Shown one piece after another: positions 1 through 26,953 of a stretch of DNA of 49,456 bases; the stretch's first letter is position 1, and each line of letters starts with the position of its first letter. The DNA comes from Dehalococcoidia bacterium (GTDB lineage: Bacteria > Chloroflexota > Dehalococcoidia > SZUA-161), in the NCBI GenBank assembly GCA_011174795.1, contig DUEY01000036.1, forward strand, positions 1 through 49,456, read 5' to 3'. The translations under genes and the position numbers were made by a program. The notes under the pieces are model-generated. The model was not told the DNA's origin. It searched no databases and worked only from the letters and a program-made list of their open reading frames with translations.

Positions 1-584
1 AATTCTTCTTCAAGCTCATAGAGGTCCGAGTTATTAAACTGTGTGGCGAGATTCACGTGAGCCGTATCGAAACAGTAACGCAGCGGAGTGAATTCCTTGA
101 GCGCCGCGCTCAGGAACTCGATGTTGATCAGTCTGCTCTGGCCCACGCCCTCTATATGGATTGGTATTTTTTTCTTCAAGCTGAGTTCGGCGAGCTGTTC
201 GCAGCTCTTCCAGGCGATTGACTCCAGTTTATCCTCGCTTTCGCCCGATTCATCCGATGCCGGCGAAGGGAAGTGCACCACCACGTATTCAGGCCCGTAC
301 TCCTCAGCATGCTCCATGGTCAGCATAATCATCTTCATCGTCAAATCCCGCTTATCCTCATCCACATCGCAAAGAAAAGACCAAGTCGGAGGCTGAGGAT
401 ACCAGTCAAGCTGTATCAGGGGAGCATGTATGCTCCAGTCCAGCTTATGATGCTCTATCAGGCGTTCTAGCTCGGGAAGGTCCTCCTCCGGTAGGTTGTA
501 GAACTCCCCGCGGTTAAGACCGTTGCCGATTACCATCTCGTCGAAGCGGGCAAGATCGTGGCAGTGAAAGCCGAGGTTACTCAT
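1..584 (-). CDS. Sugar phosphate isomerase/epimerase-like TIM barrel protein (3'-truncated by window edge)
   Basis: Reading the minus strand from an ATG at 584 gives an open frame of 194 codons that runs off the left edge without a stop, so the C-terminus is missing. The translation starts MSNLGFHCHDLARF and carries motifs of the xylose isomerase-like TIM barrel (AP_endonuc_2) superfamily: an early HAPLIQLD stretch, EYVVVHFPSP near residue 100, PIHIEGVG near 145 and CFDTAHVNLA near 178. The Glu, Asp and His residues in these strands are typical metal ligands of the fold. Members are sugar isomerases, epimerases or endonuclease IV; I cannot choose a substrate. The start overlaps the aroC stop by 8 bases (ATGAGTAA), which suggests translational coupling at the end of the alaS-aroC gene run. 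Confidence 0.75.
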   Translation of the reverse strand, partial: MSNLGFHCHDLARFDEMVIGNGLNRGEFYNLPEEDLPELERLIEHHKLDWSIHAPLIQLDWYPQPPTWSFLCDVDEDKRDLTMKMIMLTMEHAEEYGPEYVVVHFPSPASDESGESEDKLESIAWKSCEQLAELSLKKKIPIHIEGVGQSRLINIEFLSAALKEFTPLRYCFDTAHVNLATQFNNSDLYELEEE

Positions 585-1743
585 TCTGACTTCTGGGACC
601 TATCGTGTCTAAATAGCCTTTATAATTGCGCACCAACTCCGAAATGTGGTCGCCGCCAAACTTCTCCACCACCGCTTCAGCAAGGACGAGAGCGAGCATT
701 GCCTCCCCGATGATCCCGGCAGCTGGAACCACACAGACGTCGCTTCGTTCGACGTGAGCCTCAACTTCCTTGCCCGTCCTTAAATCCACCGAGGGCAGGG
801 GTTTCGTCAGGGTCGGAATCGGCTTAACCGCGGCGCGGACAACTATGGGCTCGCCGTTGCTTATGCCTCCCTCGATACCTCCAGCCCGGTTCGTGGCATG
901 ATGCCACAGACCTTTTTTATCTGTCTCAATTATATCGTGAACCTGAGAGCCATGGACGTTTGCCACAGTAAAACCCGACCCGCTCTCCACGCCTTTCACT
1001 GCATTGATGCTCATCATCGCCTGGGCTATCCTGCCATCGAGCCTGCGGTCCCAGTGAGCGTGGCTTCCTAGCCCGATGGGCACTCCATCGGCAATAACCT
1101 CGAAGACGCCACCGACGCTATCTCCTGCATCTTTGGCTTCATCTATAGCCACCATCATGATCCGCTCGGTCTCGCTGTCGATACAGCGCACAGGCGACTT
1201 TTCCACTATCGACCAGTCTATGGGATCGATCCGCTTGCTCCAGCATCCACCGATGCAAACGGTGTAACTGTGGAGCTCAATGCCCAACTCCTTAAGCAAC
1301 CTTCGGGCAACGGCGCCGGCGGCAACGCGGCTTGCTGTCTCCCGGGCGCTGGCGCGCTCCAGAATGGGACGGACGTCGTCAAGGCCATACTTAATAGCCC
1401 CCGCCAGGTCAGCGTGACCCGGGCGGAGCTGAGTCAGCGGCTCGACCTCCTGCTCCACCGGCGAGATGCTCATTATCTGCTGCCAGTTCTCCCAGTCGAG
1501 GTTCGGGATCAGGAGGGATAGAGGGCTGCCTATAGTAAGGCCTTGGCGCACCCCGGACAGGATTTCAGCACGGTCCTGCTCGATATCCATGCGCTCTCCC
1601 CTGCCATAGCCACACTGGCGTCGAGCAAGGTGACCGGCTATGTAGTCCTCGTCCAGAGGCAGCCCCGCGGGCATCCCCTCTATAATGACCACCAGCCCCT
1701 TGCCATGCGATTCACCCGCCGTTAGAAACCGAAACATCCCCAT
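577..1743 (-). CDS. aroC: Chorismate synthase
   Basis: 388 residues, the usual length for the family. The enzyme converts 5-enolpyruvylshikimate-3-phosphate to chorismate using reduced FMN, the last common step of aromatic amino acid synthesis, in the cytosol. The N-terminal signature FLTAGESHGKGL (residues 6-17), the RRQCGYGRGERMDIE segment (residues 41-55), RPGHADLAG and ERASARETASRVAAG are family hallmarks, as is GGIEGGISNG later on. It follows the DUF2007 gene by three bases and overlaps the next gene, so it sits inside a tightly packed minus-strand operon together with aroE. Start ATG at 1743 is preferred, although a second ATG two codons later is possible. Confidence 0.97.
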   Translation of the reverse strand: MGMFRFLTAGESHGKGLVVIIEGMPAGLPLDEDYIAGHLARRQCGYGRGERMDIEQDRAEILSGVRQGLTIGSPLSLLIPNLDWENWQQIMSISPVEQEVEPLTQLRPGHADLAGAIKYGLDDVRPILERASARETASRVAAGAVARRLLKELGIELHSYTVCIGGCWSKRIDPIDWSIVEKSPVRCIDSETERIMMVAIDEAKDAGDSVGGVFEVIADGVPIGLGSHAHWDRRLDGRIAQAMMSINAVKGVESGSGFTVANVHGSQVHDIIETDKKGLWHHATNRAGGIEGGISNGEPIVVRAAVKPIPTLTKPLPSVDLRTGKEVEAHVERSDVCVVPAAGIIGEAMLALVLAEAVVEKFGGDHISELVRNYKGYLDTIGPRSQNE

Positions 1744-1746
1744 ATC

Positions 1747-2007
1747 TCACTCTTCTATATATGTGTTTTCACGGATAGACTCCGCCCCAATCCTGACCTC
1801 AGATATAATCTTCCTAGCCAGTTCGGCATGATCCTGCCTTACAAGCACACGTATCTCGCCGATCATGGGAGGCCCGAAAGCCCCTCCCAGCAATTGACCG
1901 TATGTCTCAGCGCTAATTATGGCAGGTATACCTTCATTCTCAAGTATCGACTTGATTAACTCGGCATCCATCCTGCTCGTCGCGCTGTACACCTTTAACG
2001 TTTTCAC
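1747..2007 (-). CDS. DUF2007 small protein
   Basis: 86 residues. The sequence begins MKTLKVYSATSRMDAELIKSIL and continues with EGIPAIISAE and EIRVLVRQDHAELARKII, the pattern of the DUF2007 family (putative signal-transducing or PII-like fold proteins, function unproven). Secondary structure looks like beta-alpha-beta: a short strand, a helix carrying the DAELIKSIL motif, then strand, loop and a C-terminal helix. It is soluble, with no signal or membrane segment. It lies three bases upstream of aroC and is therefore probably co-transcribed with shikimate genes, but nothing in the sequence ties it to that pathway. Confidence 0.8.
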   Translation of the reverse strand: MKTLKVYSATSRMDAELIKSILENEGIPAIISAETYGQLLGGAFGPPMIGEIRVLVRQDHAELARKIISEVRIGAESIRENTYIEE

Positions 2008-2027
2008 ACTACCCCAGCTTCGTTAAT

Positions 2028-2086
2028 CCGTTCGTCCTGAGCCTGTCGAAGGGCCGTTTATGGTTCGACAAGCTCACCACGAACGG
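2028..2086. repeat. Intergenic inverted repeat (REP-like hairpin)
   Basis: Two 25-base arms (2028-2052 and 2062-2086) form an imperfect hairpin with a 9-base loop. Arm 1 begins CCGTTCGTCCTGAGC and the reverse complement of arm 2 begins CCGTTCGTGGTGAGC; the arms differ at only about five positions. No T-run follows on either side, so it is not a classic terminator. Elements with the cores CCTGAGCCTGTCGAA and GGTGAGCTTGTCGAA are, from memory, dispersed intergenic repeats in many environmental bacterial genomes. I see only this copy here. Confidence 0.75.
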
Positions 2087-2092
2087 CATCAT

Positions 2093-3028
2093 TTATCCCA
2101 GAGCCCTTTTCGCGGCATCCATCATTATGTCAACTGGAGCTCCCTTACCCGTCCAGAGCTCAAACGAGTCTGCACCCTGATATACCAGCATGGCAAGCCC
2201 GTTGAGAGTGCGCGCACCTGCCTCCCTCGCCTGCCTGAGAAGCTCTGTCTCTATAGGATTATACACTACATCGTAGACCAGCGCTCCCCCTGGTATGAGC
2301 TTAGCCTCAAGAGGCGATTGCCCCTCGGTCGCACTGTGCTTCATCCCCACCGGGGTGCAGTTGACCAGAAGGTCACAGCCCGCCAGCACCTCACCAAACT
2401 GAGGGTCGTCTGCAGAGAGCGCCATTACCTCCGGAGACGGCCATGACCCCGCCCCCAGCGAGGCTACCCCCCCCACGTCGGGAGCGTCGATACAGCTTCG
2501 TGGAGGCGGCCCCTGGTTGCGCGCCAAGCTTGCCTCTAGGTCCGACGCCAGCGCTCGGGCCCTCTCTATAATAATATCCGTGAGAAATAGCGATTTCATC
2601 CCCGCCCTTGCCAGAGCGAAGCTCGCCGATCGCGCCACGCCGCCGGAGCCAAGGAGCACCGCGCTCCTGCCTTCAGGGTCGAAGCCTCCCTCCTGGCGCA
2701 ACGCTTTTAAGAACCCGCCGGCATCGGTGTTATAGCCGATGAGCCTGCCGCCCCGGTTCACGACAGTGTTCAGCGACCCGATCTCCCGGACAAGGTCATC
2801 CAAGTCGTCCATCAGGGGCACCAACGACTCCTTGTGGGGCACGGTGACATTCGCCCCCACCGTTTCAGGACGTCGCAGCCGCTCCACAACCGCCCCCAGT
2901 TCTGCCGGCGCTGTATCCCACAGCTCGTAGCGTATATCAAGCCTGTAATGGTCGAAGGCAGCCTGCTGCAGCATCGGCGAGATCGAATGCTGTATCCCAT
3001 GCCCTATTAAGCCGGCGTATCTCGTCAT
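2093..3028 (-). CDS. aroE: Shikimate 5-dehydrogenase
   Basis: Reduces 3-dehydroshikimate to shikimate with NADPH. Start chosen at ATG 3028 (MTRYAGLIGHGIQHSISP, 311 residues) because AGGTG lies 8 bases upstream; an in-frame upstream ATG at 3061 lacks a ribosome site. Seen motifs: the substrate SISP serines, NVTVPHKE with the catalytic Lys, NTDAGGF with the catalytic Asp, the GSGGVARSA Rossmann loop, and VYNPIETELLRQAREAGARTLNGLAMLVYQG at the C-terminus. The NADP domain carries an extra stretch of about 35 to 40 residues around GPPPRSCIDAPDVGG, which makes the protein longer than the usual 270-290 residues. It lies between ruvX and DUF2007 on the same strand. Confidence 0.95.
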   Translation of the reverse strand: MTRYAGLIGHGIQHSISPMLQQAAFDHYRLDIRYELWDTAPAELGAVVERLRRPETVGANVTVPHKESLVPLMDDLDDLVREIGSLNTVVNRGGRLIGYNTDAGGFLKALRQEGGFDPEGRSAVLLGSGGVARSASFALARAGMKSLFLTDIIIERARALASDLEASLARNQGPPPRSCIDAPDVGGVASLGAGSWPSPEVMALSADDPQFGEVLAGCDLLVNCTPVGMKHSATEGQSPLEAKLIPGGALVYDVVYNPIETELLRQAREAGARTLNGLAMLVYQGADSFELWTGKGAPVDIMMDAAKRALG

Positions 3029-3157
3029 GGCAAGAACACCTGTCTGTAAGCGCTCAGCCATCAGCTTTCAGTGAATACCTGATTGCTGAATGCTGTATGC
3101 TTAAATAAGAAAAGAGCCAGAGCTGAGATTAAGTCTGAGCAACAGCCCGAATACGGC

Positions 3158-3589
3158 TTAATCCTGACTGGTCGTATCGCTTCTCTCGCTGTCAAGGTAG
3201 CCCTGCAGGATAAGCGCTGCCGCCACGGAGTCAAGCCGCTTCTTCCTCTTATCCCGCTTCATCCCCGCCTCCACCAGCGCACGCTCAGCCTCAACCGTGG
3301 AGAACCGCTCATCCCAGGTCAGGACAGGAATCTCGGTGCATTCTGCCAGCGAATCAGCGAAAGCCTGGACTTTCCGCGCCTGCGAGCCCAAGCTGCCATC
3401 CAGCGAACGCGGCAGCCCGATAACGATGCGCTCAGCCTCGTGCTCCCGGGCAAGAGCGATGACCTGCTCTATAGCATCAACCTCCGACTTACTCTCGATA
3501 ACGGTGAGTGCGCTCGCCATGATTCCCAGGGGGTCGCTGAGTGCCACGCCAATCCGCTTCTCCCCAACGTCGAGCCCCAGCATACGCAC
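3158..3589 (-). CDS. ruvX: Putative pre-16S rRNA nuclease / Holliday junction resolvase-like YqgF
   Basis: 143 residues, typical YqgF/RuvX length, RNase H-like fold. The N-terminus MRMLGLDVGEKRIGVALSD holds the first catalytic Asp; ERIVIGLPRSLDGSLG and VLTWDERFSTVEAE supply the other conserved acidic positions, and the C-terminal DSVAAALILQGYLD contains the final Asp. Family members trim the 5' end of 16S rRNA in E. coli and have been proposed as resolvases. It starts two bases after the alaS stop; the alaS-ruvX pair is a common bacterial arrangement and supports the assignment. Confidence 0.93.
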   Translation of the reverse strand: MRMLGLDVGEKRIGVALSDPLGIMASALTVIESKSEVDAIEQVIALAREHEAERIVIGLPRSLDGSLGSQARKVQAFADSLAECTEIPVLTWDERFSTVEAERALVEAGMKRDKRKKRLDSVAAALILQGYLDSERSDTTSQD

Positions 3590-3591
3590 TG

Positions 3592-6225
3592 CTATATCTT
3601 CTCCCTCACCAGCTTAGCCACCACCTTAAGCGCCTGTTCTGTCTTGCCCTTATCCTTGCCCCCACCCTGCCCCAGGTGGGGCCTGCCACCGCCACTGCCA
3701 CCAGCTTCCCCGGCAACAGCTTTCACAATCTCACCCGCATGCAGCCCTCGCTCGACGAGGTCGGAGGTCACCATCGCTAGAAAGGTGGGCCTGCCGGCAC
3801 ATACAGCGCCCAGCACGATGACCGCGCTGCCCAGACGCTCCCTCAATATATCGCCCATATGACGCATGACATCAATATTTGAGGCGGAGACTTTAGCTGC
3901 CAGCACTGAAACGCCGTTTACCGACTCTACCTCAGCCAGCAGCGAGTCGGCTGTCTCCCTGGACAACTGACGCTCCAGGGCAACAGCGCGTTTGCGCTCG
4001 GTATCGAGCTCGCCGAGAATGCCATCGAGCTTATCTTCAACCTCGGCAGCGGGCACCTGAAGCAGGTGGGCTATTTTCTGCAGCGCTTCAACACGCTCCT
4101 CTATTAGCTTCTCCGCCCTTCGCCCCGTCACCGCCTCGATGCGGCGCATCCCAGAGCCGATGCTTCCCTCGCTGAGCACATGGAAAAGGCCGATATCGCC
4201 AGTGCGGTCGACGTGAGTGCCCCCGCATACCTCCATGCTCACAGGCGACCTGCTTCCACCGATTCTCACCACCCTGACCACGTCACCGTACTTCTCGCCG
4301 AAGAGCGCTATCGCCCCTTCAGCCACCGCCTGCTTATGAGGCATCTCCCGCTTGGTCACCGGCAGGTTGCGGCGAATGCCCTCATTGACTATCCGTTGTA
4401 TACGGCTCAACTCCTCCGGCAGCACCGGTGCTTCCTGGGTGAAGTCGAACCTGAAGTGGTCGGGAGCCACCAATGAGCCCATCTGGCGCACGTGGCTGCC
4501 CAGAACCTGGCGCAGCGCAGCTTGCAGCAGGTGGGTGGTCGTATGGTTGCGTGCGATATCGAGACGGCGCGACTTATCAACCGCCGCGGTTATGTCCTCG
4601 CCTTCAAATATCTCCCCCTTAGTTACCGTCCCCAGGTGCACCACGATATCCTCACCTGCCCATACCGTATCGCTGACAGCTATTCGTCCTTTACCGCCAA
4701 TAAGCTCACCTGTATCAGCCACCTGACCGCCCATCTCGGCATAGAAGGGTGTCCGGTCCAGGACAACCTCGACCTGCTGTCCCTTGCGGGCAACATCGAC
4801 GGTGCCGCCGTCAGCCGCCAGGCTGATGACCCTCGCCTTGCAGCGAGTACGCCCATAGCCGACGAACTCTGTGGGCGGCAGCGACATCGAAGCGTAGTCC
4901 ACACCTGTTTCCCTGTCGCCCAGCGTGAATTTATGCGCCGCCCGCGCGCGCTCCCGCTGCTTCCCCATCTCCTTCTCAAATCCCTCAAGGTCAACCGACA
5001 GCCCGTTCTCAGCAGCAACCTCCGTGGTCAGCTCGGCGGGGAAGCCATAGGTGTCGTAGAGCCTGAATACATCTTCACCGGAAACCTTTCCCTCCATTCT
5101 CTTCCTCGCTTGCTCCATAACCTGGCCGAGTATTTTTAAACCTGTATCAAGTGTTTCGGCAAACCTTGCTTCCTCAATATTGATTGTCCTGACAACAAGG
5201 TCACAGTTCGCCACCAGTTCGGCGTAGACGCGATCCATGCTGGTAATGACCACTTCGGCTATATCCAAGAGGAATGGCTGCTCCAGCCCCAGCGTCCTGC
5301 CCAAGAGGGCAGCACGTCTCAGCACCCGCCGCAGTACGTATCCCCTCCCCTCGTTCGAGGGAATGACACCGTCCGCTATCAGGAAGGTCGCCGCCCGACC
5401 GTGCTCCACCACTATCCTCATCGCCCGGTCGGTTTTTTCATCCTCACCATATCTATAACCCGTTAAATCAGCTACTTTCTGCACAATGGGGGCGAAGAGA
5501 TCGGTCTCGTAAAAAGAACGCTTGCCCTGGAGCACTGCCGCCGTCCGCTCCAGCCCCATCCCGGTATCGATATTCTTATTAGGCAGCGGCGTGCGCTTGC
5601 CACCGGCGTTCTGGTAGAACTCAGTAAAAACGAGGTTCCAAATTTCCAGGAAACGCCCGCAATCGCAGGCAGGCGAGCAGCCAAGACCGCAGGCGAACTC
5701 CTCACCCATATCGTAATGAATCTCGCTGCACGGCCCGCAGGGACCTGTCTCGCCGGCGGGACCCCAGAAATTGTCCTCCTCGCCGCAGCGGGAAATACGC
5801 TCCGCCTCCACTCCCACGTCCCGCCAGTGGCCGAAGGACTCATCGTCATCAAGGAATATGGTAATCCACAGCCTCTCCCGGGGAATCCTGAGCCAGTCGA
5901 GGACGAATTCCCAGGCCCAGGCAATAGCCTCCTTCTTGAAGTAGTCGCCGACGCTGAAGTTGCCCAGCATCTCGAAGAAGGTAAGGTGCTTGAGATTGCC
6001 CACCGAGTCCATGTCGGTCGTGCGGAAGCACTTCTGACACGACGCCAACCGCGGTGAGGGCGGTACTGCCTCGCCGGTAAAATAGGGCTTGAACTGGACC
6101 ATGCCCGCGCTGGTCAGGAGGAGCGTGGGGTCCCCCAGGGGTATGAGGGAGGAACTGGGCACAATGCTATGCCCCTTCCCCTCAAAAAAAAGGAGAAACT
6201 TCTCCCTGAGTTCATCGCCTGTCAT
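3592..6225 (-). CDS. alaS: Alanyl-tRNA synthetase
   Basis: Attaches alanine to tRNA-Ala. 877 residues from ATG 6225 (MTGDELREKFLLFFEGKGH), chosen because GGAG lies five bases upstream; a GTG two codons earlier overlaps the ribosome site. The class II catalytic core occupies roughly residues 1-240 (TSAGMVQFKPYF, RLASCQKCFRTTD), followed by a tRNA-recognition region. The editing domain shows HTTTH near residue 560 and CGGTH near 665, the zinc ligands that clear mischarged Ser/Gly. The C-terminal C-Ala part has the Gly-rich GEAGGSGGGRPHLGQGGG segment. A CXCXXCXC-like cluster, CGLGCSPACDCGRF, near residue 180 is an additional zinc-binding feature seen in some AlaRS. Confidence 0.98.
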   Translation of the reverse strand: MTGDELREKFLLFFEGKGHSIVPSSSLIPLGDPTLLLTSAGMVQFKPYFTGEAVPPSPRLASCQKCFRTTDMDSVGNLKHLTFFEMLGNFSVGDYFKKEAIAWAWEFVLDWLRIPRERLWITIFLDDDESFGHWRDVGVEAERISRCGEEDNFWGPAGETGPCGPCSEIHYDMGEEFACGLGCSPACDCGRFLEIWNLVFTEFYQNAGGKRTPLPNKNIDTGMGLERTAAVLQGKRSFYETDLFAPIVQKVADLTGYRYGEDEKTDRAMRIVVEHGRAATFLIADGVIPSNEGRGYVLRRVLRRAALLGRTLGLEQPFLLDIAEVVITSMDRVYAELVANCDLVVRTINIEEARFAETLDTGLKILGQVMEQARKRMEGKVSGEDVFRLYDTYGFPAELTTEVAAENGLSVDLEGFEKEMGKQRERARAAHKFTLGDRETGVDYASMSLPPTEFVGYGRTRCKARVISLAADGGTVDVARKGQQVEVVLDRTPFYAEMGGQVADTGELIGGKGRIAVSDTVWAGEDIVVHLGTVTKGEIFEGEDITAAVDKSRRLDIARNHTTTHLLQAALRQVLGSHVRQMGSLVAPDHFRFDFTQEAPVLPEELSRIQRIVNEGIRRNLPVTKREMPHKQAVAEGAIALFGEKYGDVVRVVRIGGSRSPVSMEVCGGTHVDRTGDIGLFHVLSEGSIGSGMRRIEAVTGRRAEKLIEERVEALQKIAHLLQVPAAEVEDKLDGILGELDTERKRAVALERQLSRETADSLLAEVESVNGVSVLAAKVSASNIDVMRHMGDILRERLGSAVIVLGAVCAGRPTFLAMVTSDLVERGLHAGEIVKAVAGEAGGSGGGRPHLGQGGGKDKGKTEQALKVVAKLVREKI

Positions 6226-6353: not shown

Positions 6354-7898
6354 ATGGCAGCCTCTTCTAAGTATAATCAACATTGCAGCTATCTCATCGA
6401 CCTATGCCAGGAATTGCTCGCCGAAAGGCGTCTTATCCTCGTGAGCAATCGAGGCCCTGTCGAATACCGGGTGGGCCAGGACGGGGCGCTGCACCTGAAC
6501 CGGGGCAGCGGAGGGGTTGTAACCGCCCTCAGCGCTATCAGCAGGTATGTGGAGCTTACCTGGATCGCCAGTTCTATGGGAGAAGGAGACCGCAAGGTTG
6601 CTGCCCAGCATGATGGGCGCTTCCCGGTCCAGCTCCCGGGGCAGAATCTTTACCTTCGATTCGTTACCACCCCCAGGAATGTCTACCATAAATACTACAA
6701 TCTGTTCTGTAACCCCCTGATCTGGTTCCTCCAGCATTACATGTGGAACTCACCCTATACCCCCAACTTAGATGCCAAGGTCTACGATGCCTGGGAGAAC
6801 GGGTATGTTGCCGTGAACCGTGCCTTCGCTGAAGCTACGATCGCTGAAGCAGCAGATGACAAGACCCCTCCCTTCGTCATGATACATGACTACCAGCTTT
6901 ACCTGGTCGGCGGATATATTCGCCGCCACATGCCCCAGGCTATTCTCCAGCACTTCATCCACATCCCCTGGCCTGCCTCCAGCTACTGGCACCTCTTCCC
7001 CGAGCAGATGCGCCGGGCGATCCTGCAAAGCCTCTGCGCTGTCGACATCGTGGGGTTACAAACCAAACGCGACGTCCACCACTTCCTGCACAGTTGCGAG
7101 ATATTTCTCGACGGCGCCAAAGTCGATTATGAGAACAACACCATAGCCTATGAGGGGCGCCAGACCAAGGTTGCATCGTATCCTGTATCCGTGGATATCG
7201 CTACACTGCAGAGGCTCTCCCAATCCCCCAGGGTTCAGAACTACGAGGAAAAGCTGCGCCCTCACCTCGGTGAACATACCATCGTGAGAGTCGACCGAGC
7301 AGAGCCGAGCAAGAACATCATCCGCGGCTTGAGAGCCTTCGATATCGTGCTGGAGCGTTATCCTGCCCTGCTGAACAGGGTAAAGATGTTATGCTTCCTA
7401 GTCCCGTCCCGTTCCGGGATACGGCAGTACCAGAGATACACCCAGGATATATTCGATTCCGTTGAAGCGATCAATGCCAAGTATGGAACCGAAAGCTGGC
7501 AGCCGATAACGGTATTCTACGAGAATAACTATGCCCAGGCTATTGCAGGGATGCGTCTCTGCGACGTGCTCATGGTAAATCCCGTTATCGACGGCATGAA
7601 CCTAGTAGCCAAGGAAGGGCCTGTCGTCAGCGCCAACCACAGCGTTCTCATTTTATCGGAGTCCGCCGGCGCCCATGAGCAACTGCGGGATAACGCTGTA
7701 TCAGTAGCGCCTGCAGATGTGGAGGGGACAGCCCGAACACTGTATAAGGCGCTAACCATGGACGAAACAGAGCGGAAAATGAGAGCCGAGGGACTAAAAA
7801 AAACGATCGAAAGGGAAGATATCACCAGGTGGATGTACCACCAGTTCCACGACCTCAGGGAGCTGGCCTGCCAGCTACCTCTGCTGCTACTCGTTTGA
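6354..7898 (+). CDS. otsA: Alpha,alpha-trehalose-phosphate synthase (GT20 family)
   Basis: 514 residues, retaining GT-B fold. It would transfer glucose from a nucleotide sugar to glucose 6-phosphate. Seen motifs: VSNRGPVEYR with the GSGG loop (residues 30-55), the YYNLFCNPLIWFLQHY segment, MIHDYQLYLVGGYIR (catalytic-region His; HDYQL instead of HDYHL), FIHIPWPASSYW, VDRAEPSKNI with the Arg/Lys phosphate pair, and DGMNLVAKE for the donor site. The neighbouring trehalose-phosphatase gene supports trehalose synthesis, a compatible solute. Glucosylglycerol-phosphate synthase and related GT20 enzymes are alternatives, since the acceptor region differs from E. coli OtsA. No Shine-Dalgarno sequence precedes the ATG. 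The last 44 bases overlap the converging phosphatase gene. Confidence 0.85.
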   Translation: MAASSKYNQHCSYLIDLCQELLAERRLILVSNRGPVEYRVGQDGALHLNRGSGGVVTALSAISRYVELTWIASSMGEGDRKVAAQHDGRFPVQLPGQNLYLRFVTTPRNVYHKYYNLFCNPLIWFLQHYMWNSPYTPNLDAKVYDAWENGYVAVNRAFAEATIAEAADDKTPPFVMIHDYQLYLVGGYIRRHMPQAILQHFIHIPWPASSYWHLFPEQMRRAILQSLCAVDIVGLQTKRDVHHFLHSCEIFLDGAKVDYENNTIAYEGRQTKVASYPVSVDIATLQRLSQSPRVQNYEEKLRPHLGEHTIVRVDRAEPSKNIIRGLRAFDIVLERYPALLNRVKMLCFLVPSRSGIRQYQRYTQDIFDSVEAINAKYGTESWQPITVFYENNYAQAIAGMRLCDVLMVNPVIDGMNLVAKEGPVVSANHSVLILSESAGAHEQLRDNAVSVAPADVEGTARTLYKALTMDETERKMRAEGLKKTIEREDITRWMYHQFHDLRELACQLPLLLLV

Positions 7899-8664
7899 GA
7901 AAGCGTTCCACATCGCCCACTCCATTGAGAGTGAAATCGGCTTGCAGCATGACATCAGTGATCGTCTCCTCCCCCACAACCCCTATGCCGAGCCCCTTGA
8001 AAGGCAACGCACCATGGTGCAAGGCGACGAAGACATCGACATCGGTAACGTCATCACCCAGGTAAATCACCCCGCTTAAGCTGTGCTCTGCAATCAATGT
8101 ACGCACGGCGGTCCATTTGCTGACCTCCAGCGGCGGTCTGAGCTCGACCGTCATCTTCCCCTGGCTTACCCTCAGTCCGCTTTCCCTAACAAGCCCTGCT
8201 ACCGCTTTGTTGATGGCCCTCAAAGCCGCTTCCCGGTCGTGGCAGCGGCGGTAGTGAATGGATGCGGTAGGGCCCTTGTTCTCAAAAATAACTCCCTCTA
8301 TACAAATGAGACTGCTGAGCCGGTCGAGCACTGCCTCTACTTTCGCGGGATATTCCTCGGCATTGGGGACAAGCTCGACACTGCCTCCAACCCACCTCTC
8401 ATAGCCGTGATTGCCAATGTAAACAAGGTCGTCTATACCCACCATCCTCCTCGCCTCGGCAGCGGGTCGCCCCGAAACAGCAACGACGACAGCCAGGTAT
8501 CCAGCCAAGATAGCAAGGCTCTCCCGGCACACGGGAGAGACACCCGCCTCTGGGGGAGACGGCGCAATCTCGCTGATAGTACCATCGATATCGGTGAAGA
8601 GGCCCAAGGGAGTGAGCGATAATAGCTCCCGTACCGATTCAAAATGGTCGAAGAGATAGGGCAT
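7855..8664 (-). CDS. otsB: Trehalose-phosphatase (HAD superfamily)
   Basis: 269 residues. It removes phosphate from trehalose 6-phosphate, the second step after the GT20 enzyme. HAD motifs are clear: LFTDIDGTISEIA (residues 21-33, nucleophile Asp and acid/base Asp), VAVSGRPAAEARRMVG (motif II), and VIYLGDDVTDVDVF (motif IV metal Asp). YIGNHGYE and VELRPP are typical OtsB sequences. It converges on otsA and overlaps its 3' end by 44 bases, so the two genes are not one operon although they are functionally paired. The mscS gene lies 22 bases upstream on the same strand and may be co-transcribed, which would link two osmotic-stress functions. Confidence 0.92.
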   Translation of the reverse strand: MPYLFDHFESVRELLSLTPLGLFTDIDGTISEIAPSPPEAGVSPVCRESLAILAGYLAVVVAVSGRPAAEARRMVGIDDLVYIGNHGYERWVGGSVELVPNAEEYPAKVEAVLDRLSSLICIEGVIFENKGPTASIHYRRCHDREAALRAINKAVAGLVRESGLRVSQGKMTVELRPPLEVSKWTAVRTLIAEHSLSGVIYLGDDVTDVDVFVALHHGALPFKGLGIGVVGEETITDVMLQADFTLNGVGDVERFLKRVAAEVAGRPAP

Positions 8665-8686: not shown

Positions 8687-9967
8687 CTAGCTCTCTCCCT
8701 CCCCTTCTTCCTCCTCAGGGGGAAGGACTTTTATCCTCGTTTTTCGTCGGGGAGCCTTGCCGGGAGGGCCCTCTTCTTTCACCGTCTTAGGCTTCTTGCC
8801 CACAGCACGTGCCACCCCCTCCGGCAATTGTTTGGGTTCATCGCCGAAATAGACCTTGGTATGGGGCCAGGGGATCTCGATCCCCTCCTTATCGAAAGCC
8901 TTCTTAATCCTCTTCCGCAACTCCCCCATCACCTCCCACTGCCTTATCGGCTTGGTATCTCCCAGTATCTTAATGTCGATCCCCGAATCGCCGAGCTTAT
9001 CCACCCGGAGCACCTGCGGCGGCTGCAAGAGTGCCTCACTCCAGTATTCTTCACCGGCCATCTCCTGCCCTACCCTGTTTATCACCTTGATAGCGTGATC
9101 AAGGTCTTCACCATACGCCACCGAGATATTGAGGTTGACCCTGGAGAACTCCTTGGTGTAGTTGCTGGCGACCTTGATCTCACCATTGGGCACCACGTGC
9201 ACTATGCCATCAAGGTCTCTAAGCACTGTCCTCCTGATGTTCACCTCCTCCACTATACCGGCGATGCCAGCTACCATTACCACATCACCCTTCCTGTACT
9301 GGTTCTCGATGATGATAAAAAGTCCGCTCAACACATCCTTGACTAAGCTCTGCGCGCCGAAGCCGATACCGATGCCGATGACGCCGGCGCCAGCCAGCAG
9401 GGGTCCGATATTTACACCCACCTCGGAGAGTATCATGAACCCTGCTATTACCCAGATGACTATTACGGCGAATTGAGTTAGGAAGTGGCTAAGGGTACCC
9501 GCCCTCTTCCTTTGCTCTTCACTGATGCGGCGTCTACGCCCGTATATGTGGGTCTCCACCACTTTGTGGATCAACCGCTTGAGGATTTGGTGGACAACAA
9601 CCGCTATGGCAATGATGATGGCAATGCGAACTCCATGACTCCCCAGCCAGTCGACAACGGTTTCTCCAACAGGAGATAGGTCCACCCCAAACCTGGGAAG
9701 AACTGTAAATACAGTAGCAGTGAGGATTAGCAGCGTCCCAAACCATAGAAAGAGCTGGGTTGTAGTATGCGATAGCTCCTTACGGTCTTTCTCGGTTCGG
9801 CCAGGCTTTGTCTTTATCACCACCCAGGAAACCACCCTGGGCGCTAATATCCTCAGCAGGATGTACGCCACAACGGCGACAGCAAGAGTAACAAGAAACC
9901 AGATACCCTGATCTGAAAACCAGTCCCCAGCCGATTCCCAATGGAAGTCTTGAGCAGGACCATCCAT
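8687..9967 (-). CDS. Small-conductance mechanosensitive channel, MscS family
   Basis: 426 residues. Five hydrophobic segments are visible: about residues 20-42, 70-90, 112-132, 160-182 and the pore helix region IGPLLAGAGVIGIGIGFGAQSLVKDVLSG, which has the small-residue packing pattern of MscS TM3. The following IENQYRKGDVVMVAGIAGIVEEV and DLDGIVHVVPNGEI segments form the cytoplasmic beta domain. A charged C-terminal tail of about 50 residues (Lys/Pro rich, ending EEEEGEGES) is beyond the usual MscS fold. The protein would release osmolytes on hypo-osmotic shock. It lies just upstream of otsB, which fits an osmotic theme. Confidence 0.93.
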   Translation of the reverse strand: MDGPAQDFHWESAGDWFSDQGIWFLVTLAVAVVAYILLRILAPRVVSWVVIKTKPGRTEKDRKELSHTTTQLFLWFGTLLILTATVFTVLPRFGVDLSPVGETVVDWLGSHGVRIAIIIAIAVVVHQILKRLIHKVVETHIYGRRRRISEEQRKRAGTLSHFLTQFAVIVIWVIAGFMILSEVGVNIGPLLAGAGVIGIGIGFGAQSLVKDVLSGLFIIIENQYRKGDVVMVAGIAGIVEEVNIRRTVLRDLDGIVHVVPNGEIKVASNYTKEFSRVNLNISVAYGEDLDHAIKVINRVGQEMAGEEYWSEALLQPPQVLRVDKLGDSGIDIKILGDTKPIRQWEVMGELRKRIKKAFDKEGIEIPWPHTKVYFGDEPKQLPEGVARAVGKKPKTVKEEGPPGKAPRRKTRIKVLPPEEEEGEGES

Positions 9968-10071: not shown

Positions 10072-10172
10072 TCAGTTATTCTAGTGTACACTCAGCTTCA
10101 GTAGTATAATATTCCACAGGTAATGGCTGCGAATCGGTCCATCCGATAAACGTGAACTGGGGGGTGTTGGAT

Positions 10173-10838
10173 ATGGCTTATGTAGGCATACTTATCATAG
10201 CGATACTCATCTCCTTCATTGTCGTACGTGTAGGGGGCTTGGCTTTACAGCTAACCGGCATGGAGCCCGATGTAGCCAGATTCCAGGCGCTGTCCGCCTT
10301 TTCAGGGACCGGCTTCACCACAACGGAAGCAGAGCGGGTTGTACGGCATAAAACGAGGCGGCGTATCGTGACAATCCTCATTATTCTGGGCAATGCCGGT
10401 CTGGTGGCGATAATAGCGACACTGGTTGCGTCTTTCACCAATGTAACGGGTTACGGCTGGTTTTTCGCACGACTCGGAATAATACTCGTCAGTATCTTCA
10501 TCCTCTACCGCCTGATAGTGACCAGCAGAATCGGCAATCGGGCTCTCTACTGGGTTAGAAAGCCTCTGATGAAGCGGATACTTATGGAAGCGCCGGCTAT
10601 CGAAGAAATATTCCATGCTGGAAAGGACTGGGGCATTATTCTCTTGACGATGAAGGAGAAATCGAAGGGTATCGGTATGACCCTTGCTGATGTCAAGGTC
10701 GAAGAGGGCATACTTGTTCTGGGTATAGACAGGGAAGAAGCTTTTATTCCCGAGCCAGAGCCCGAGGAGAAAATACAACAGGGGGACCGGCTACTGGTCT
10801 ACGCAAGCACGAAGTCGGCGAGAGAACTCCTGGCTTAA
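10173..10838 (+). CDS. Membrane protein with C-terminal TrkA-C (RCK-C) domain
   Basis: 221 residues from ATG 10173, chosen because GGGGGGTG lies about eight bases upstream; a GTG seven codons earlier is less likely. Three hydrophobic segments are visible (about residues 3-22, 72-95 and 103-122). The stretch FQALSAFSGTGFTTTEAERV resembles the pore-proximal signature of TrkH/KtrB-type cation transporters. The C-terminal part (ADVKVEEGILVLGIDREEAFI, then IQQGDRLLVYAS) is a TrkA-C domain, a regulatory ligand-binding fold. The protein may be a regulatory or accessory unit for ion transport. It has no Trk partner gene nearby. Confidence 0.75.
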   Translation: MAYVGILIIAILISFIVVRVGGLALQLTGMEPDVARFQALSAFSGTGFTTTEAERVVRHKTRRRIVTILIILGNAGLVAIIATLVASFTNVTGYGWFFARLGIILVSIFILYRLIVTSRIGNRALYWVRKPLMKRILMEAPAIEEIFHAGKDWGIILLTMKEKSKGIGMTLADVKVEEGILVLGIDREEAFIPEPEPEEKIQQGDRLLVYASTKSARELLA

Positions 10839-10853
10839 TACAGCGTTTTGCGA

Positions 10854-12200
10854 CTAACCGGTAGCAACCTGAGGCAGGTCTTTCACTGCCGCATCGATGC
10901 GCTCATCCGATGCTAACCTGTCCTCCACAGCCCCTTCGAGGAAGTCTTTAAAAATGGCAATGTCAAGGTTGCTATTAGTGCTCAGCAAAAACAGGATATT
11001 CTTCCGCTCCTTCCTCTCCTTGCAAGCCAGGGCTTCATCGACCACAGCCTTTATTGCGTACGAGGATTCGGGCGAAGGAACAAATCCTTCGGCACGCGCG
11101 AACTCTAGTCCTGCTTCGAAGGCCTGTCGCTGGGTATAGGTCTTCGCTTCTATCCGCTTCTCCCGGTACAGAGCGCTGACCAGCGGTGAGATACCATGGT
11201 AGCGCATCCCGCCAGCCCGAATATTAGGCGGAACATACCCGTGGCCGATGGTATACATCTTCAGTAACGGTGCAAATCCGTCAGAATCCGAGTAGTCATA
11301 GGCAAAACGTCCTTTTGAGAGGCTGGGAGCAGATGCTGTCTCAACAGCAATAAACCTGCCTCCTTCCTTGCGCTCATGGTAGAAGGGGAAAACCAGACCC
11401 CCAAAGCCACTGCCTCCCCCCACAGCACTTATACAGATGTCCGGCTGGGCACCAGCTTCTTTCATCTGAAGCCTGGCTTCTAGTCCGATAAGTGTCTGGT
11501 GCAGTATTACGTAGTTCATGACGGTACCCCAGGCAAACTTGGCGTCATCCCGCTTACTGGCCTCCTCAAATGCCTCACTTAAGGCAATACCGAGGCTGCC
11601 TGAAGAGTCCGGGTCCTGACTCAGCACCCTGCTACCCGTGCGGGTGCTCTCATTGGGGCTGGGCACCACTTCGGCCCCCAGTAGTTCCATAACGTAGCGT
11701 CCATACGCTCTCTCCTCGTAGCTGGCCCTGACCATATAGACCTTGCACTTGATATCGAAGTAATTGCAGGCTGCTGCCAGCGATGCCCCCCACTCCCCAT
11801 TGCCCGTAGCTGCAATGAGTTGTTTGGTCCCCTCATGGCTGGCATAGAAAGCCTGTACTACAGCGGTATTGAATTCGTAGCTTCCCGAAGGGCTGCCGCC
11901 CTCATACTTATAGAAGATGCGCGCCGGTGTTCCCAGCCTCTTCTCCAGCCTTTCCGCCCGATGAAGCGGCGTCGGCCGCCACTCTTTATACAGGTCGTGA
12001 AGCTCTCCGGGAATTTGCACCTCCCGTTTATCCTTCTCCAGTTCTTGCTCGATAATAGCATGAGAGGCTAAAGGCTCGAGGTCGTGAAAGCCCAGAGGAT
12101 AACCGCTCGGGCTCATCGGGGGTGCAACCTCAAACTCCAGGTCGGGGATGATGTTATACCATTTATCAGGCAGCTTCTTAATGTCAAGGGTCACTCTCAT
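10854..12200 (-). CDS. TrpB2-like PLP-fold protein lacking the catalytic lysine
   Basis: 448 residues that align along their length with the TrpB2 branch of tryptophan synthase beta: an N-terminal extension with KWYNIIPDL and PPMSPSGYPLG, then RPTPLHRAERLEKRLGTPARI, GLEA and the EGFVPSPESSYAIKAV motif near the C-terminus. The PLP site is altered. The segment that normally reads GSHKxNTA is GSYEFNTA, so His-Lys is Tyr108-Glu109 and the Schiff-base lysine is gone (codon at 11874-11876 reads GAA on the minus strand). The catalytic Glu of ETGAGQWG is Ala131 (ATGNGEWG), and the phosphate loop GGGSNF is GGGSGF. The frame is intact, so it looks like a maintained pseudoenzyme or a changed function rather than a decaying gene. 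No trpA or other trp gene is adjacent. Confidence 0.85.
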   Translation of the reverse strand: MRVTLDIKKLPDKWYNIIPDLEFEVAPPMSPSGYPLGFHDLEPLASHAIIEQELEKDKREVQIPGELHDLYKEWRPTPLHRAERLEKRLGTPARIFYKYEGGSPSGSYEFNTAVVQAFYASHEGTKQLIAATGNGEWGASLAAACNYFDIKCKVYMVRASYEERAYGRYVMELLGAEVVPSPNESTRTGSRVLSQDPDSSGSLGIALSEAFEEASKRDDAKFAWGTVMNYVILHQTLIGLEARLQMKEAGAQPDICISAVGGGSGFGGLVFPFYHERKEGGRFIAVETASAPSLSKGRFAYDYSDSDGFAPLLKMYTIGHGYVPPNIRAGGMRYHGISPLVSALYREKRIEAKTYTQRQAFEAGLEFARAEGFVPSPESSYAIKAVVDEALACKERKERKNILFLLSTNSNLDIAIFKDFLEGAVEDRLASDERIDAAVKDLPQVATG

Positions 12201-12267
12201 ATCGATTTACCTCCCCTAGCTGTTAACCACTCTGTATGACTAGGACGACATTATACCAGAAAAAAAG

Positions 12268-13344
12268 CTATTGAAGGCGAGGCCATTTCTTCATCTTATC
12301 GATATAGCCTATGAGCTTCTCTGGTTCTACGGCAAACGGTCTGACCCTCTTGACCTGACGGCGGCTCCACTCAATCCACCTTCTGGCCCAGAACCACGAC
12401 AGCGTAGCGATAATCACGATCCCTATGAAACCCAGTACGGAGAAATAGCCCCAGTGCCAATCCAACTCCGGCATGTAGTCAAAGTTCATGCCATAGATTC
12501 CTGCTATCAAAGTGAGCGGAATGAAGATGGTGGCTACCAGCGCCAGGATTCTCATGCTCTCATTCTGCCGGTTTGCCACGGACGACAGATGAGTGGCCAG
12601 CGCATTATCGGCCCTATCCCGCAGAGATTGTCCCAGGTCCTCGATCCGCACTATGTGATCGTATATATCTCGATAAAACAGCTGCGCCTCTTCCCTTATT
12701 ATCGGGAACTCGCGTCTGCTCAACCGGTTCAGAACCTCGCGCTGGGGAGCCATAACCCTGTGTATCCGCAGAATTGAACTCTTGAGCTTCAGAATCGCCT
12801 CCAGCGTCGATTGCCGCGGGCTGCGAATAACCTCCTCCTCAATCTCCGCAGCCACGTCGCCCATCTTGTCGATGGTGGGCAGCACGTTATCGATCAGGGC
12901 ATCAATCAAGACATAGGTTAAAAAGTCAGCCCCCCGTTTCATGGGGCGGCCATCATCTTCCACAAGCTTGACTATCGAATCAACGCTGTAAAGAGGATCG
13001 CTGTGGGTGCTGACAACAAAGTGGGGACCGAGGAATATTCCCAGTTCCGCTGTCTCCACGACGTCCGACTCTACCCTGTGATTGATGCCATGGACGATAA
13101 TATAGAGGTGGTCGCCGAAATCATCAATCTTCGGATAATGGATCAGTGGACTCACGCAGTCCTCGATAGCCAGATGATGGAAGCCGAAACTGCGTGCCAT
13201 GAACTCTCCATCCTCCTCGGTAACCCCGCAGATGTCCACCCACAGCAGTCCTTCCTTCGATTGAAAAGCTGCTCGAACCTCCTCCTCGCTGAGGCCACGC
13301 CGAAAATGACCATCGGGGCTTAAATGGTATGCCTTGTAGCTCAT
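12268..13344 (-). CDS. corA: CorA-family magnesium/cobalt transporter
   Basis: 358 residues. The soluble N-terminal domain (about 1-290) ends in the long stalk helix, followed by two transmembrane segments. The selectivity signature YGMNFDYMPELDWHWGY sits between them (GMN motif after the first TM; here MPEL-type loop). The sequence LVDICGVTEEDGEFMARSFGFHHLAIEDC is typical of the family start. It mediates channel-type uptake of divalent cations. The ribosome site GGGAGG lies seven bases upstream of ATG 13344. Upstream, between this gene and the SDR gene, is a small 7-bp hairpin at 13373-13389 without a T-run. Confidence 0.95.
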   Translation of the reverse strand: MSYKAYHLSPDGHFRRGLSEEEVRAAFQSKEGLLWVDICGVTEEDGEFMARSFGFHHLAIEDCVSPLIHYPKIDDFGDHLYIIVHGINHRVESDVVETAELGIFLGPHFVVSTHSDPLYSVDSIVKLVEDDGRPMKRGADFLTYVLIDALIDNVLPTIDKMGDVAAEIEEEVIRSPRQSTLEAILKLKSSILRIHRVMAPQREVLNRLSRREFPIIREEAQLFYRDIYDHIVRIEDLGQSLRDRADNALATHLSSVANRQNESMRILALVATIFIPLTLIAGIYGMNFDYMPELDWHWGYFSVLGFIGIVIIATLSWFWARRWIEWSRRQVKRVRPFAVEPEKLIGYIDKMKKWPRLQ

Positions 13345-18149: not shown

Positions 18150-19028
18150 ATGAACCTCATAGTCAATTTCACTCCGACCGGTATGATACCAACAAAAGCG
18201 ATGACACCTTACGTCCCGGTAACCGTGCAGGAAATCATCGACGAGGTGCACGAAGCCGTTACTATAGGCATCACCATGGTTCATTTACATGCCCGCGATG
18301 AACAGACCGGCGAACCGACATACAAGGCTGAGGTTTACGGCGACATAATTGCCGGTATTCGCGAGTTCAGCAGCGACCTCGTGATAGCCGTTTCATTAAG
18401 CGGGCGCACCTTCACCGAGTTTGAAAAACGCGCCCAGCCGTTGCAGCTTGAGGGTGCGCTGAAGCCGGACATGGGCAGCCTGACCCTCAGCTCGGTGAAT
18501 TTCAACAAACAAACAAGCGTAAACTCCCCCGATATGATACAAGCGCTCGTCGATGAAATGAGGCTTCGTGGCATCACGCCCGAACTCGAGGCTTTCGATG
18601 CCGGCATGATTAACTACGCAAAGTATCTGGAGAGAAAGGGGTTGCTCGAGCCTCCTCACTATTTCAACCTGATACTGGGCAATATCGCCTGTGCGCAGGC
18701 CGACCTGCTGCATGTCAGCGTCATGCTCAATGACCTGCCACCGGACTCGCTCTGGAGCCTCGGCGGGGTTGGCGACGCCCAATTGATGATGAACTCAATC
18801 GCCATCGCCGCCGGCGGCGGCGTAAGGGTTGGCCTCGAGGACAACATCTGGTATGACCCGGCACGCACAAAGCTGGCACGCAACTCCGAGCTAATCCAGC
18901 GTATTCACAGAATCGCCGAGGCCAATCAGAGGGAGATTATGACGCCCGCCGAACTGAGAAGGCTTTTAGCACTGGAGGATGGGCAGGGGCACTACGGCCG
19001 AAAATATCAGGAGAGTGAAAGTTTTTAA
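18150..19028 (+). CDS. BKACE-family beta-keto acid cleavage enzyme (DUF849)
   Basis: 292 residues. Members condense a beta-keto acid with acetyl-CoA and split it to acetoacetate and a CoA ester; the founding member cleaves 3-keto-5-aminohexanoate in lysine fermentation. Zinc-binding TIM barrel motifs are visible: NFTPTGMIPTKAMTPYVPVTVQEI at the start, MVHLHARDEQTGEPTY with the two metal His, PDMGSLTLSSVNFNK, ELEAFDAGMI and GGGVRVGLEDNIWYDP. The actual substrate cannot be read from sequence, and no lysine fermentation genes are adjacent. It has its own promoter. The last four bases overlap the 3' end of the converging GNAT gene. Confidence 0.9.
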   Translation: MNLIVNFTPTGMIPTKAMTPYVPVTVQEIIDEVHEAVTIGITMVHLHARDEQTGEPTYKAEVYGDIIAGIREFSSDLVIAVSLSGRTFTEFEKRAQPLQLEGALKPDMGSLTLSSVNFNKQTSVNSPDMIQALVDEMRLRGITPELEAFDAGMINYAKYLERKGLLEPPHYFNLILGNIACAQADLLHVSVMLNDLPPDSLWSLGGVGDAQLMMNSIAIAAGGGVRVGLEDNIWYDPARTKLARNSELIQRIHRIAEANQREIMTPAELRRLLALEDGQGHYGRKYQESESF

Positions 19029-19711
19029 ACTGGCTCACCGGTTGGCACAATCGGTGTTTCCTTCCATGACTGCCGCCCCATTAACTTCAAGCGGCGCCCC
19101 CTGGCCAATAATTTAGGGCCAAATTTGGCGTGCACTTTGAGAGATGCGGTATTACTGGTTAATACCGAATTGCGTGTTGTCTTGATCCCCATTTCCCTGA
19201 GGAACTGGAATCTCCTGAAATAGACATATGCCATAAGCCCCTTGCCTCTGAACGCCGGTACCGTGTAGCTCCCCCCGGTACAGGCCTGACCGTTGGAGAA
19301 GTCCACTTTATACGGCACCGTATCAAAGGTCTTCCGAGCTTTCTCGCTGAAAGCAATCCAGCCGATGTGGGCGAACTCCTCGCCAACGAAACCACAGAAG
19401 CCTATGGCGCCCTTTTCCAGCTTCTCCTCGACATCGACCAAACGGCGCCTTAACTCGAATCCGGTAGCAGCCTCAAATTCACCAGCCTCTTTGTTAGTGC
19501 GAATGATATGCAGGGTAAAATTGTCGATTCTGGGGAGGAAGTCTGCTTCATCCCTTTCGATTAAGGTATGCTCGAAGATATAATAATGCGCATACTGGAA
19601 CACAAAACTTGCTACCCGATCATAAACGCGTGCTAGTAGCGGCCTCAATCCCTGGTACTTGTATATATCCCTCGCCCTCTTGACCAGCACTTTCAGTTCG
19701 TAAAAACTCAT
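19025..19711 (-). CDS. GNAT-fold acetyltransferase-like protein
   Basis: 228 residues, not assigned to a named family. The C-terminal half contains the GNAT acetyl-CoA signature: GGSYTVPAFRGKGLMAYVYFRRFQFLREMG (residues about 145-175, R/Q-x-x-G-x-G/A type loop RGKGLM), followed by the NTASLKVHAKFG segment with the Asn often seen in motif B. The N-terminal 60 residues are helical and basic (LKVLVKRARDIYKYQG). No signal or membrane segment. It converges with the BKACE gene with a four-base overlap. The acceptor substrate is unknown. Confidence 0.7.
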   Translation of the reverse strand: MSFYELKVLVKRARDIYKYQGLRPLLARVYDRVASFVFQYAHYYIFEHTLIERDEADFLPRIDNFTLHIIRTNKEAGEFEAATGFELRRRLVDVEEKLEKGAIGFCGFVGEEFAHIGWIAFSEKARKTFDTVPYKVDFSNGQACTGGSYTVPAFRGKGLMAYVYFRRFQFLREMGIKTTRNSVLTSNTASLKVHAKFGPKLLARGRRLKLMGRQSWKETPIVPTGEPV

Positions 19712-24788: not shown

Positions 24789-25522
24789 CTCCTCATTCCC
24801 GTGCAGCGGTCGTAAATTTCCGGAAAAGCCGCTGCATCTATCTCCTGTTTTACCTCTTGATAGACGACCACGCCCTCGTGGAGAATCAGCACCTGGTCAG
24901 CGAGCTCTAGGCCGCGCGCCAAGTTGTGCGTGGTCATCACGACAGTGCGCTCCCCAGAGGTGAAGTGCTCCAGTACAGCTCGCATCATCACAGTGGCGTG
25001 GGGGTCAAGTCCTGTCTCCGGTTCATCGAGGAGCATGACCGGCGGATCATGGAGCACCGCCCTTGCTATGGCAACCCGCTGCTGCATGCCGCGTGACAGC
25101 GTCCCCACCCGGTCATGCAGCCGCGCTTTAAGCTGCACCTGAGAGATTACCTCCTCTATGCGCCGCTCCAGATTCGCGAGCCCATACATCTTGCCGTAGA
25201 ATCTCAGGTTCTCGCTAACCGTGAGATGAGGATACAGGAAGGTAGAATGGCTGACTACTCCCAACTTGCTGCGGCTCTGCTCGGGAGTCTTACGGATATC
25301 CAGACCATCCAGCAGCACGCTTCCGCCAGACGGCTTTGACAAGGTAGAGAGCAGTTTGATCAGTGTCGTCTTCCCCGCACCGTTAGGGCCGAAGACAGTA
25401 AGGTGGTCGCCCCGCTTAACCTTGAGGTCAATTCCCGCGAGAGCAGGTATATTGCCGAATGACTTAGCAAGCCCATGTGTCTCAATAGCCCATGGGGTAG
25501 GGGAAAGGTCACCTTCAGCCAC
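24785..25522 (-). CDS. ccmA: Heme exporter ATP-binding protein CcmA
   Basis: 245 residues. ABC ATPase with Walker A GPNGAGKTTLIKLLSTL, signature LSRGMQQRVAIARAVL, Walker B PVMLLDEPETGLDP and the switch His in VVMTTHNLARG. CcmA uses ATP to release heme-loaded CcmE. Start is GTG 25522: it overlaps the upstream stop (GTGGCTGA) and has GGGAG six bases upstream, whereas a GTG eight codons earlier would lie well inside the upstream gene. It belongs to the ccmE-F-(zinc ribbon)-(membrane protein)-A-B-C-D operon on the minus strand. Confidence 0.95.
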   Translation of the reverse strand: MAEGDLSPTPWAIETHGLAKSFGNIPALAGIDLKVKRGDHLTVFGPNGAGKTTLIKLLSTLSKPSGGSVLLDGLDIRKTPEQSRSKLGVVSHSTFLYPHLTVSENLRFYGKMYGLANLERRIEEVISQVQLKARLHDRVGTLSRGMQQRVAIARAVLHDPPVMLLDEPETGLDPHATVMMRAVLEHFTSGERTVVMTTHNLARGLELADQVLILHEGVVVYQEVKQEIDAAAFPEIYDRCTGMRR

Positions 25523-26678: not shown

Positions 26679-26695
26679 TGCTTCCCTTACAAGAC

Positions 26696-26953
26696 CTACG
26701 TACTTAGGCTCGCCCCACACTCAGAGCAAAATTTATCCCTCGAATCGCATCTCGCGCCGCAGCTCGGGCAGACCTTATCCACAACATCTTCCGCAGCTTC
26801 GCTGCGACCCTTTCGTAACGCCCGTATCCGCTTCTCCAGCTCCTCATCAAGAGCCTCATCTCCCGAAACACTCTTGGCTCTCGACCTGAAGAAGGGATAG
26901 GCAATAAAGATAGCCGCAATGAGACCTAATAGAATACCCAGTGGAACAGTCAT
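26696..26953 (-). CDS. Small membrane protein with zinc ribbon in the ccm operon
   Basis: 85 residues. One N-terminal membrane helix (MTVPLGILLGLIAAIFIAYPFF), a charged helix (DEELEKRIRALRKGRSEAAEDV) and a C-terminal zinc ribbon CPSCGARCDSRDKFCSECGASL with two CxxC pairs. The membrane-plus-helix half resembles the N-terminal part of CcmI-like proteins. Start overlaps the ccmF stop by four bases (ATGA), so it is co-translated with ccmF. Confidence 0.8.
   Translation of the reverse strand: MTVPLGILLGLIAAIFIAYPFFRSRAKSVSGDEALDEELEKRIRALRKGRSEAAEDVVDKVCPSCGARCDSRDKFCSECGASLST

Follow-up and report, generated by a model that had tools for sequence, protein, structure and literature searches.

A probable TrpB2-derived pseudoenzyme subfamily without the cofactor lysine in one class of Chloroflexota

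A TrpB2-like gene of a Dehalococcoidia bacterium (10854..12200, - strand) probably belongs to a conserved subfamily of TrpB2-derived pseudoenzymes found in one class of Chloroflexota. The gene lies in a 49,456-nucleotide stretch of contig DUEY01000036.1, the whole of which we refer to as the window. The family profile NF009057 names its product a PLP-dependent enzyme, which the sequence of the protein contradicts: the lysine that would carry the cofactor is replaced by glutamate, and the surrounding pocket has changed with it.

Results

The window gene encodes a TrpB2-like protein

The open reading frame starts with ATG and remains open across 448 codons. A probable ribosome-binding site, AGGGGAGGT (12209..12217, - strand), is placed 8 bases before the ATG; a promoter scan upstream of the gene returned no sigma-70-type promoter, and a TATAAT at 12250-12255 on the - strand has no matching -35 box. 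The 448-residue product scored 560.3 bits against NF009057, above the curated TrpB2 family cut-off of 366, compared with 125.5 bits against the trpB model. Its score of 500.7 bits against TIGR01415 (trpB_rel) fell short of the curated cut-off of 518.85, and a 134-bit match to PF00291 assigned it to the fold type II PLP fold. By alignment, the nearest solved structures were 6hul, 4qys and 6hte, all of them TrpB2. A predicted model built on 19 aligned proteins (mean pLDDT 91.5) superimposed on 6hul_B with a Z score of 58.3 and an rmsd of 1.5 over 412 aligned residues, and the TrpB2 fold is thus predicted to be intact.

Alignment with the same three structures showed that E109 (codon GAA, 11874..11876; this and all following codons are on the - strand) sits on the lysine of GSHK, the PLP Schiff-base position, that A131 (11808..11810) sits on the indole-activating Glu of ETGAGQWG, and that G265 (11406..11408) sits on the Asn of GGGSN, converting the motif to GGGSG. 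The initial annotation had described a TrpB2-like protein of 448 open codons altered at these three catalytic positions, and codon reading and alignment bore this description out. It had also considered the rest of the fold intact. Its list of altered positions is incomplete: Q136E and the SGHG loop have changed too, as have R167G, S226T, H328R, L332M, H381Y, L224W and others, at positions nearly invariant among 127 canonical homologues (a set that leaves out 11 distant archaeal-type rows) and switched in the lysine-less group. Glu136 (11793..11795) replaces the Gln of GAGQWG, a residue shared, at two-decimal precision, by every one of the 127 canonical homologues, and the window protein reads ATGNGEWG here, with N134 preceding E136. 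Gly167 (11700..11702), Arg328 (11217..11219) and Tyr381 (11058..11060) occupy positions where canonical TrpB2 has an invariant Arg, His and His, respectively, and the SGHG motif has become STNS.

Lysine-less homologues occur in nine genomes of one class

Nine of 147 distinct stop-free homologues were without the Schiff-base lysine and 138 kept it, in a count that drops matches with stops or covering fewer than about 400 query positions. The nine come from nine genomes of the same class, the window genome included, with six family codes; eight carry Glu at the lysine position and one carries Gln. The homologues from the eight other genomes are 53-70% identical to the window protein. Two of these, L034 and L035 (66% and 63% identity), were already found in a first scan of the collection. 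Genome searches within the window's order recovered these two again, so that with the window's own genome 3 of 18 carry the gene, and a sample of the class found it in 7 of 393, with new members in G389, G646, G325 and G455. A search of the order around G646 (151 genomes) contributed two further members, G693 and G694; no more came from searching the G389 order (15 genomes) or the G325 order (2 genomes). A phylum sample of 301 genomes contained no further high-scoring member; 30 of its matches were taken as loci, and all carry Lys except the window's own. When a profile of the nine was run against the 393 class genomes, the seven clade matches scored 772-874 bits and the next match 655. With 7 of the 393 class genomes carrying it, the gene is patchy in its distribution and hence dispensable for most relatives.

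These data bear on one rival explanation for the missing lysine, namely a decaying gene or an assembly error in which the codon drifted away or was misread. Patchiness would suit this explanation, as would a pocket less conserved than that of canonical TrpB2 (see below), but it is hardly credible given nine intact frames in one clade, specific replacements common to that clade, and a dN/dS of 0.11 in the single well measurable pair. The substitutions are shared by L034 and L035, each from a public assembly of its own, and by genomes belonging to several other families, and an isolated mutation or sequencing error is ruled out in practice by the same replacements in nine genomes. The misread that the initial annotation had considered at 11874-11879 is excluded in practice; the close relatives with a normal HK motif that would have pointed to an isolated mutation were not found, as identity to the window protein is about 53% for the closest HK homologues and 70% for the closest lysine-less one; and its argument that drift would have left stops and frameshifts is supported by the intact frames and the low dN/dS of the G646/G693 pair. 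A clade was also found where it had suggested looking for one with Tyr-Glu at positions 108-109, although only the Glu is characteristic: Tyr108 (11877-11879) is present in just 3 of the 9 members.

Pocket residues were replaced in a shared pattern

Glu109 is the common feature of the clade, with G325 (locus L131) the sole member to carry Gln. Position 131 is Ala in 8 of 9 members and Gly in the G455 protein (L132). Position 136 is Glu in 8 of 9, L132 among them, and Asp in G325; the 109/136 pair thus reads K/Q in canonical proteins, E/E in eight members and Q/D in G325, and the two positions seem to change together. Position 265 is Gly or Ala in 8 of 9 members and remains Asn in L132, Arg328 is found in 7 of 8 members plus L132, and Tyr381 is found in all nine. 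Eight members all show one and the same replacement at each of positions 131, 224, 226, 332 and 381, and L132 has many of the same changes while keeping GGGSN, from which we read the replacement as coordinated rather than as random decay. Positions 407-410, by comparison, vary freely within the clade: the Ser of SGHG (Ser407) survives in the window protein, but 7 of the 9 members have another residue there.

The Asn of GGGSN and the Ser of SGHG are PLP contacts. Loss of the former, together with loss of the latter in 7 of 9 members, makes PLP binding unlikely, and judging by these residues clade proteins probably cannot bind PLP as TrpB does. It follows from TrpB chemistry that no internal aldimine would form without the Schiff-base lysine, so that ordinary tryptophan synthesis would not be possible. 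Likewise, the indole step would be lost without the catalytic Glu, whose role in this step of TrpB is described in PMC12727527. The initial annotation had proposed that lysine loss would halt normal PLP chemistry and leave a non-enzymatic or new role, a proposal supported by the occurrence of one clade under low dN/dS across the nine genomes and six family codes.

The clade has a single origin and is under purifying selection

A quick tree of 97 rows united the nine lysine-less proteins in one clade (SH-aLRT 99), and so did a more careful tree of 53 rows from which 37 active-site columns had been removed (100/98); the latter rules out that the single origin is an artefact of common pocket residues. 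The interior of the clade was less firmly branched, with several forks below 95 in the careful tree. The window protein grouped (89/82) with G389, which has another family code, and not with G305, whose family code it shares, a placement that may mean transfer or an old duplication followed by loss. G455 branched first. Its protein, L132, has K109E, Q136E, R167G, S226T, L228M, H328R, L332M, H381Y and Gly131 but keeps GGGSN, Leu224, Tyr222 and Ile207. Because this early-branching member has an intermediate set of residues, the order of changes is partly visible in the sequences: loss of the lysine together with several pocket changes came first, and the phosphate-loop change and L224W later.

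The clade protein is kept under purifying selection. The G646/G693 pair, the one well unsaturated comparison when most others were saturated or nearly so at synonymous sites, had a dS of 0.60, a dN of 0.065 and a dN/dS of 0.108. Among the eight core members, pairwise identity was 76% in pocket columns and 65% elsewhere, compared with 84.5% and 63% in 586 sets of canonical TrpB2 at matched background; pocket columns were picked from motif positions and not from structure, and the comparison is approximate. The pocket is partly relaxed relative to canonical TrpB2, yet remains above the rest of the protein, and lower conservation there is what would be expected if part of the old site had simply relaxed. 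Canonical proteins have 57 invariant (>=95%) pocket columns, of which all eight members retain 29; a further five have switched uniformly and the other 23 vary. Among the 74 canonical-invariant columns outside the pocket, the eight retain 51.

The window gene is an extra paralogue beside a normal trp cluster

On contig 21 the window's genome has a run of trpF, trpB1, trpA and a canonical trpB2 (trpF and trpA were named by eye, TrpA also by PF00290). With this normal cluster on another contig, the window gene is an extra paralogue, and a broken trpB of the normal operon is ruled out by this run. A normal trp operon had been expected by the initial annotation to indicate an isolated mutation; the operon does exist, but the gene at issue is additional to it. 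After the run (L128, G000:C21:6000-14922) come genes of the ArgK/MeaB-like GTPase, enoyl-CoA hydratase-like and SDR kinds, as judged by eye. Canonical TrpB2 is present in all nine clade genomes (partial in G455), and TrpB1 and TrpA are each present in 8 of 9; both were looked for and not found in G646, a genome that is 90% complete. G305 carries, alongside its lysine-less gene, a divergent TrpB2-like paralogue (L143, G305:C123:4268-5407) of about 30% identity with an intact lysine (GNHKANSA), ETTGNWG and GGGAN.

TrpB2 proteins are dimers. The lysine-less paralogue might pair with the cell's catalytic TrpB2 and raise or lower its activity, a rather unlikely arrangement in our estimation, though one for which every clade genome supplies a canonical partner (partial in G455) and the fold of the window protein is predicted to be intact. 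There is also precedent: activation by a dead paralogue is a known mechanism, and in trypanosomatids a catalytically dead deoxyhypusine synthase paralogue modulates its partner, according to PMC3663545. However, the lysine-less and canonical TrpB2 genes are unlinked, and most genomes of the class with a TrpB2 match have no pseudoenzyme at all.

The partner might instead be TrpA. In plants, a TSB-like protein turns on indole-glycerol-phosphate cleavage by TrpA so that indole is released, and a lysine-less protein that bound TrpA could by analogy do the same. The clade has the Glu-to-Ala change that is a hallmark of plant TSB-like in PMC12727527, where the catalytic Glu is replaced almost always by Ala; TrpA is encoded in 8 of 9 genomes; and 6hul, the structure matched best, shows TrpB2 in complex with TrpA. 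Nevertheless, we consider this distinctly unlikely. G646 keeps the lysine-less gene although no TrpA was found there, and the other change that marks the plant protein, Asp386 to Glu, is not mirrored here, as TrpB2 has Arg at this site, corresponding to R333, which every clade member keeps; for these two reasons the plant model is not simply transferable. Furthermore, TrpB2 proteins encoded outside operons were ranked the weakest TrpA binders in PMC1854888, and PMC12727527 assigns plant TSB-like to a different clade from TSB type II.

Ion and osmotic genes recur beside the lysine-less gene

A CorA-type Mg2+ transporter gene (12268..13344, - strand, PF01544) lies directly upstream of the window gene, and a gene for a TrkA_C-domain protein (10152..10838, + strand, PF02080) is its convergent neighbour. 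An MscS-type mechanosensitive channel gene (8687..9967, - strand, PF00924) and trehalose genes of the OtsA type (6354-7898, + strand, PF00982) and OtsB type (7855-8664, - strand, PF02358) follow within less than 6 kb. Similar neighbours recur in the clade: a CorA homologue adjoins the lysine-less gene in 4 of 9 loci (upstream on the same strand in the window genome, G000, and tail to tail in G325, G693 and G694), MscS is nearby in G000, G315 and G389, OtsA/OtsB in G000 and G389, and glucan phosphorylase in G455, G325 and G694. None of the five neighbour types was found at the G305 and G646 loci.

As controls from the same class, 23 canonical TrpB2 loci and 20 arbitrary loci contained no match to any of the five neighbour queries, in a comparison that is imperfect because most arbitrary loci come from single-contig genomes of narrow spread. 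CorA alone, present at 4 of the 9 clade loci and at none of the 43 control loci, gave a Fisher p of 0.0005, to be read with the caution that the four loci are not all independent, as those of G325, G693 and G694 may reflect one common inheritance. The neighbourhood signal was found after looking, and OtsA, OtsB, MscS and glucan phosphorylase were chosen as queries from the clade loci themselves. A further 78 canonical TrpB2 loci from many phyla likewise gave 0 for all five queries, which could miss distant homologues.

Other features of these loci deserve mention. Chorismate synthase and shikimate dehydrogenase genes (window 577-3061) lie about 10 kb or less from the lysine-less gene, and the pair is also found, as judged by eye, at L035 in G315 (1261-4568) with AlaRS and MscS; this region is a gene block shared within the order. 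In G389, an MscS domain and DUF5752 share one open frame (L133:14143-15534) beside OtsA/OtsB-type genes. Two open reading frames of the window (19025-19711 and 25515-26720, - strand; 228 and 401 aa) had no Pfam match at 1e-5.

The presence of CorA, a divalent-cation transporter, next to the gene in 4 of 9 loci could fit a PLP-free chemistry in which the former cofactor cavity has gained a new site, catalytic or metal-binding, made up of Glu109, Glu136 and Arg328. The co-variation of the 109/136 pair and the conservation of the new residues (E109 and E136 in 8 of 9, Y381 in 9 of 9) would agree with such a site. Yet residue 109 is Gln in G325 and no precedent was found in the open-licence literature, and we regard this as another improbable reading.

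Discussion

The most likely role for the lysine-less protein, as we infer it, is that of a regulatory or ligand-binding subunit. In the mechanism we propose, the TrpB2 fold would be kept while the cavity is rebuilt and made more acidic by E109 and E136, with R328 newly added. Such a cavity may bind a small ligand non-covalently. The protein would then act through contacts with other proteins, as a subunit that regulates or senses a ligand, and not as a PLP enzyme. The neighbouring genes suggest that its physiology may be ion or solute homeostasis. A bolder form of the idea, which we offer tentatively as a possibility, is that in one bacterial class a PLP enzyme fold has turned into a PLP-free ligand sensor or enzyme, with Lys to Glu, the loop Gln to Glu and the new Arg marking a new site tied to the divalent-cation or osmotic physiology of its CorA, MscS, trehalose and glucan neighbours.

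Searches of open-licence papers found no description of a bacterial TrpB paralogue without the cofactor lysine. Canonical TrpB2 (PDB 6hul and 4qys) resembles the window protein in full-length homology and predicted fold, and canonical members from the phylum reach about 53% identity to it. The window protein differs from them in lacking the Schiff-base Lys, the catalytic Glu, the loop Gln, Arg167, His328 and His381, in its altered GGGSN and SGHG motifs and in belonging to a clade of its own. A laboratory mutant of Salmonella TrpB, K87T (PDB 1ubs), also has the lysine replaced and the TrpB fold kept; that is a single engineered change, whereas the natural clade has many more pocket changes.

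Among known proteins, the plant TSB-like pseudoenzyme (Florean et al. 2025, PMC12727527) comes closest; it arose separately. According to that paper, TSB-like is a TrpB-family paralogue with Ala for the catalytic Glu and without tryptophan synthase activity, an activity expected to be absent from the window protein as well; the plant case further shows that a dead TrpB paralogue can persist for its effect on a partner. The same paper defines TSB-like by E190A and D386E, with lysine loss not among the features described in the sections consulted, and derives it from TSB, apart from TSB type II. The Glu replacement is shared by the bacterial clade (Ala or, in one member, Gly). The Asp386 change is not, and the bit scores place the window protein outside the canonical TSB lineage and on the TrpB2 branch, a separate origin. 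TSA activation is shown for the plant protein in this source; for the bacterial clade it is a candidate role by analogy. Together, these comparisons characterize the lysine-less clade as an independent bacterial TrpB-family pseudoenzyme from the TrpB2 branch in which the cofactor lysine itself has been lost and whose early-branching member, G455, records part of the order of changes. The clade is a tractable system for following the conversion of a cofactor-dependent enzyme to another use.
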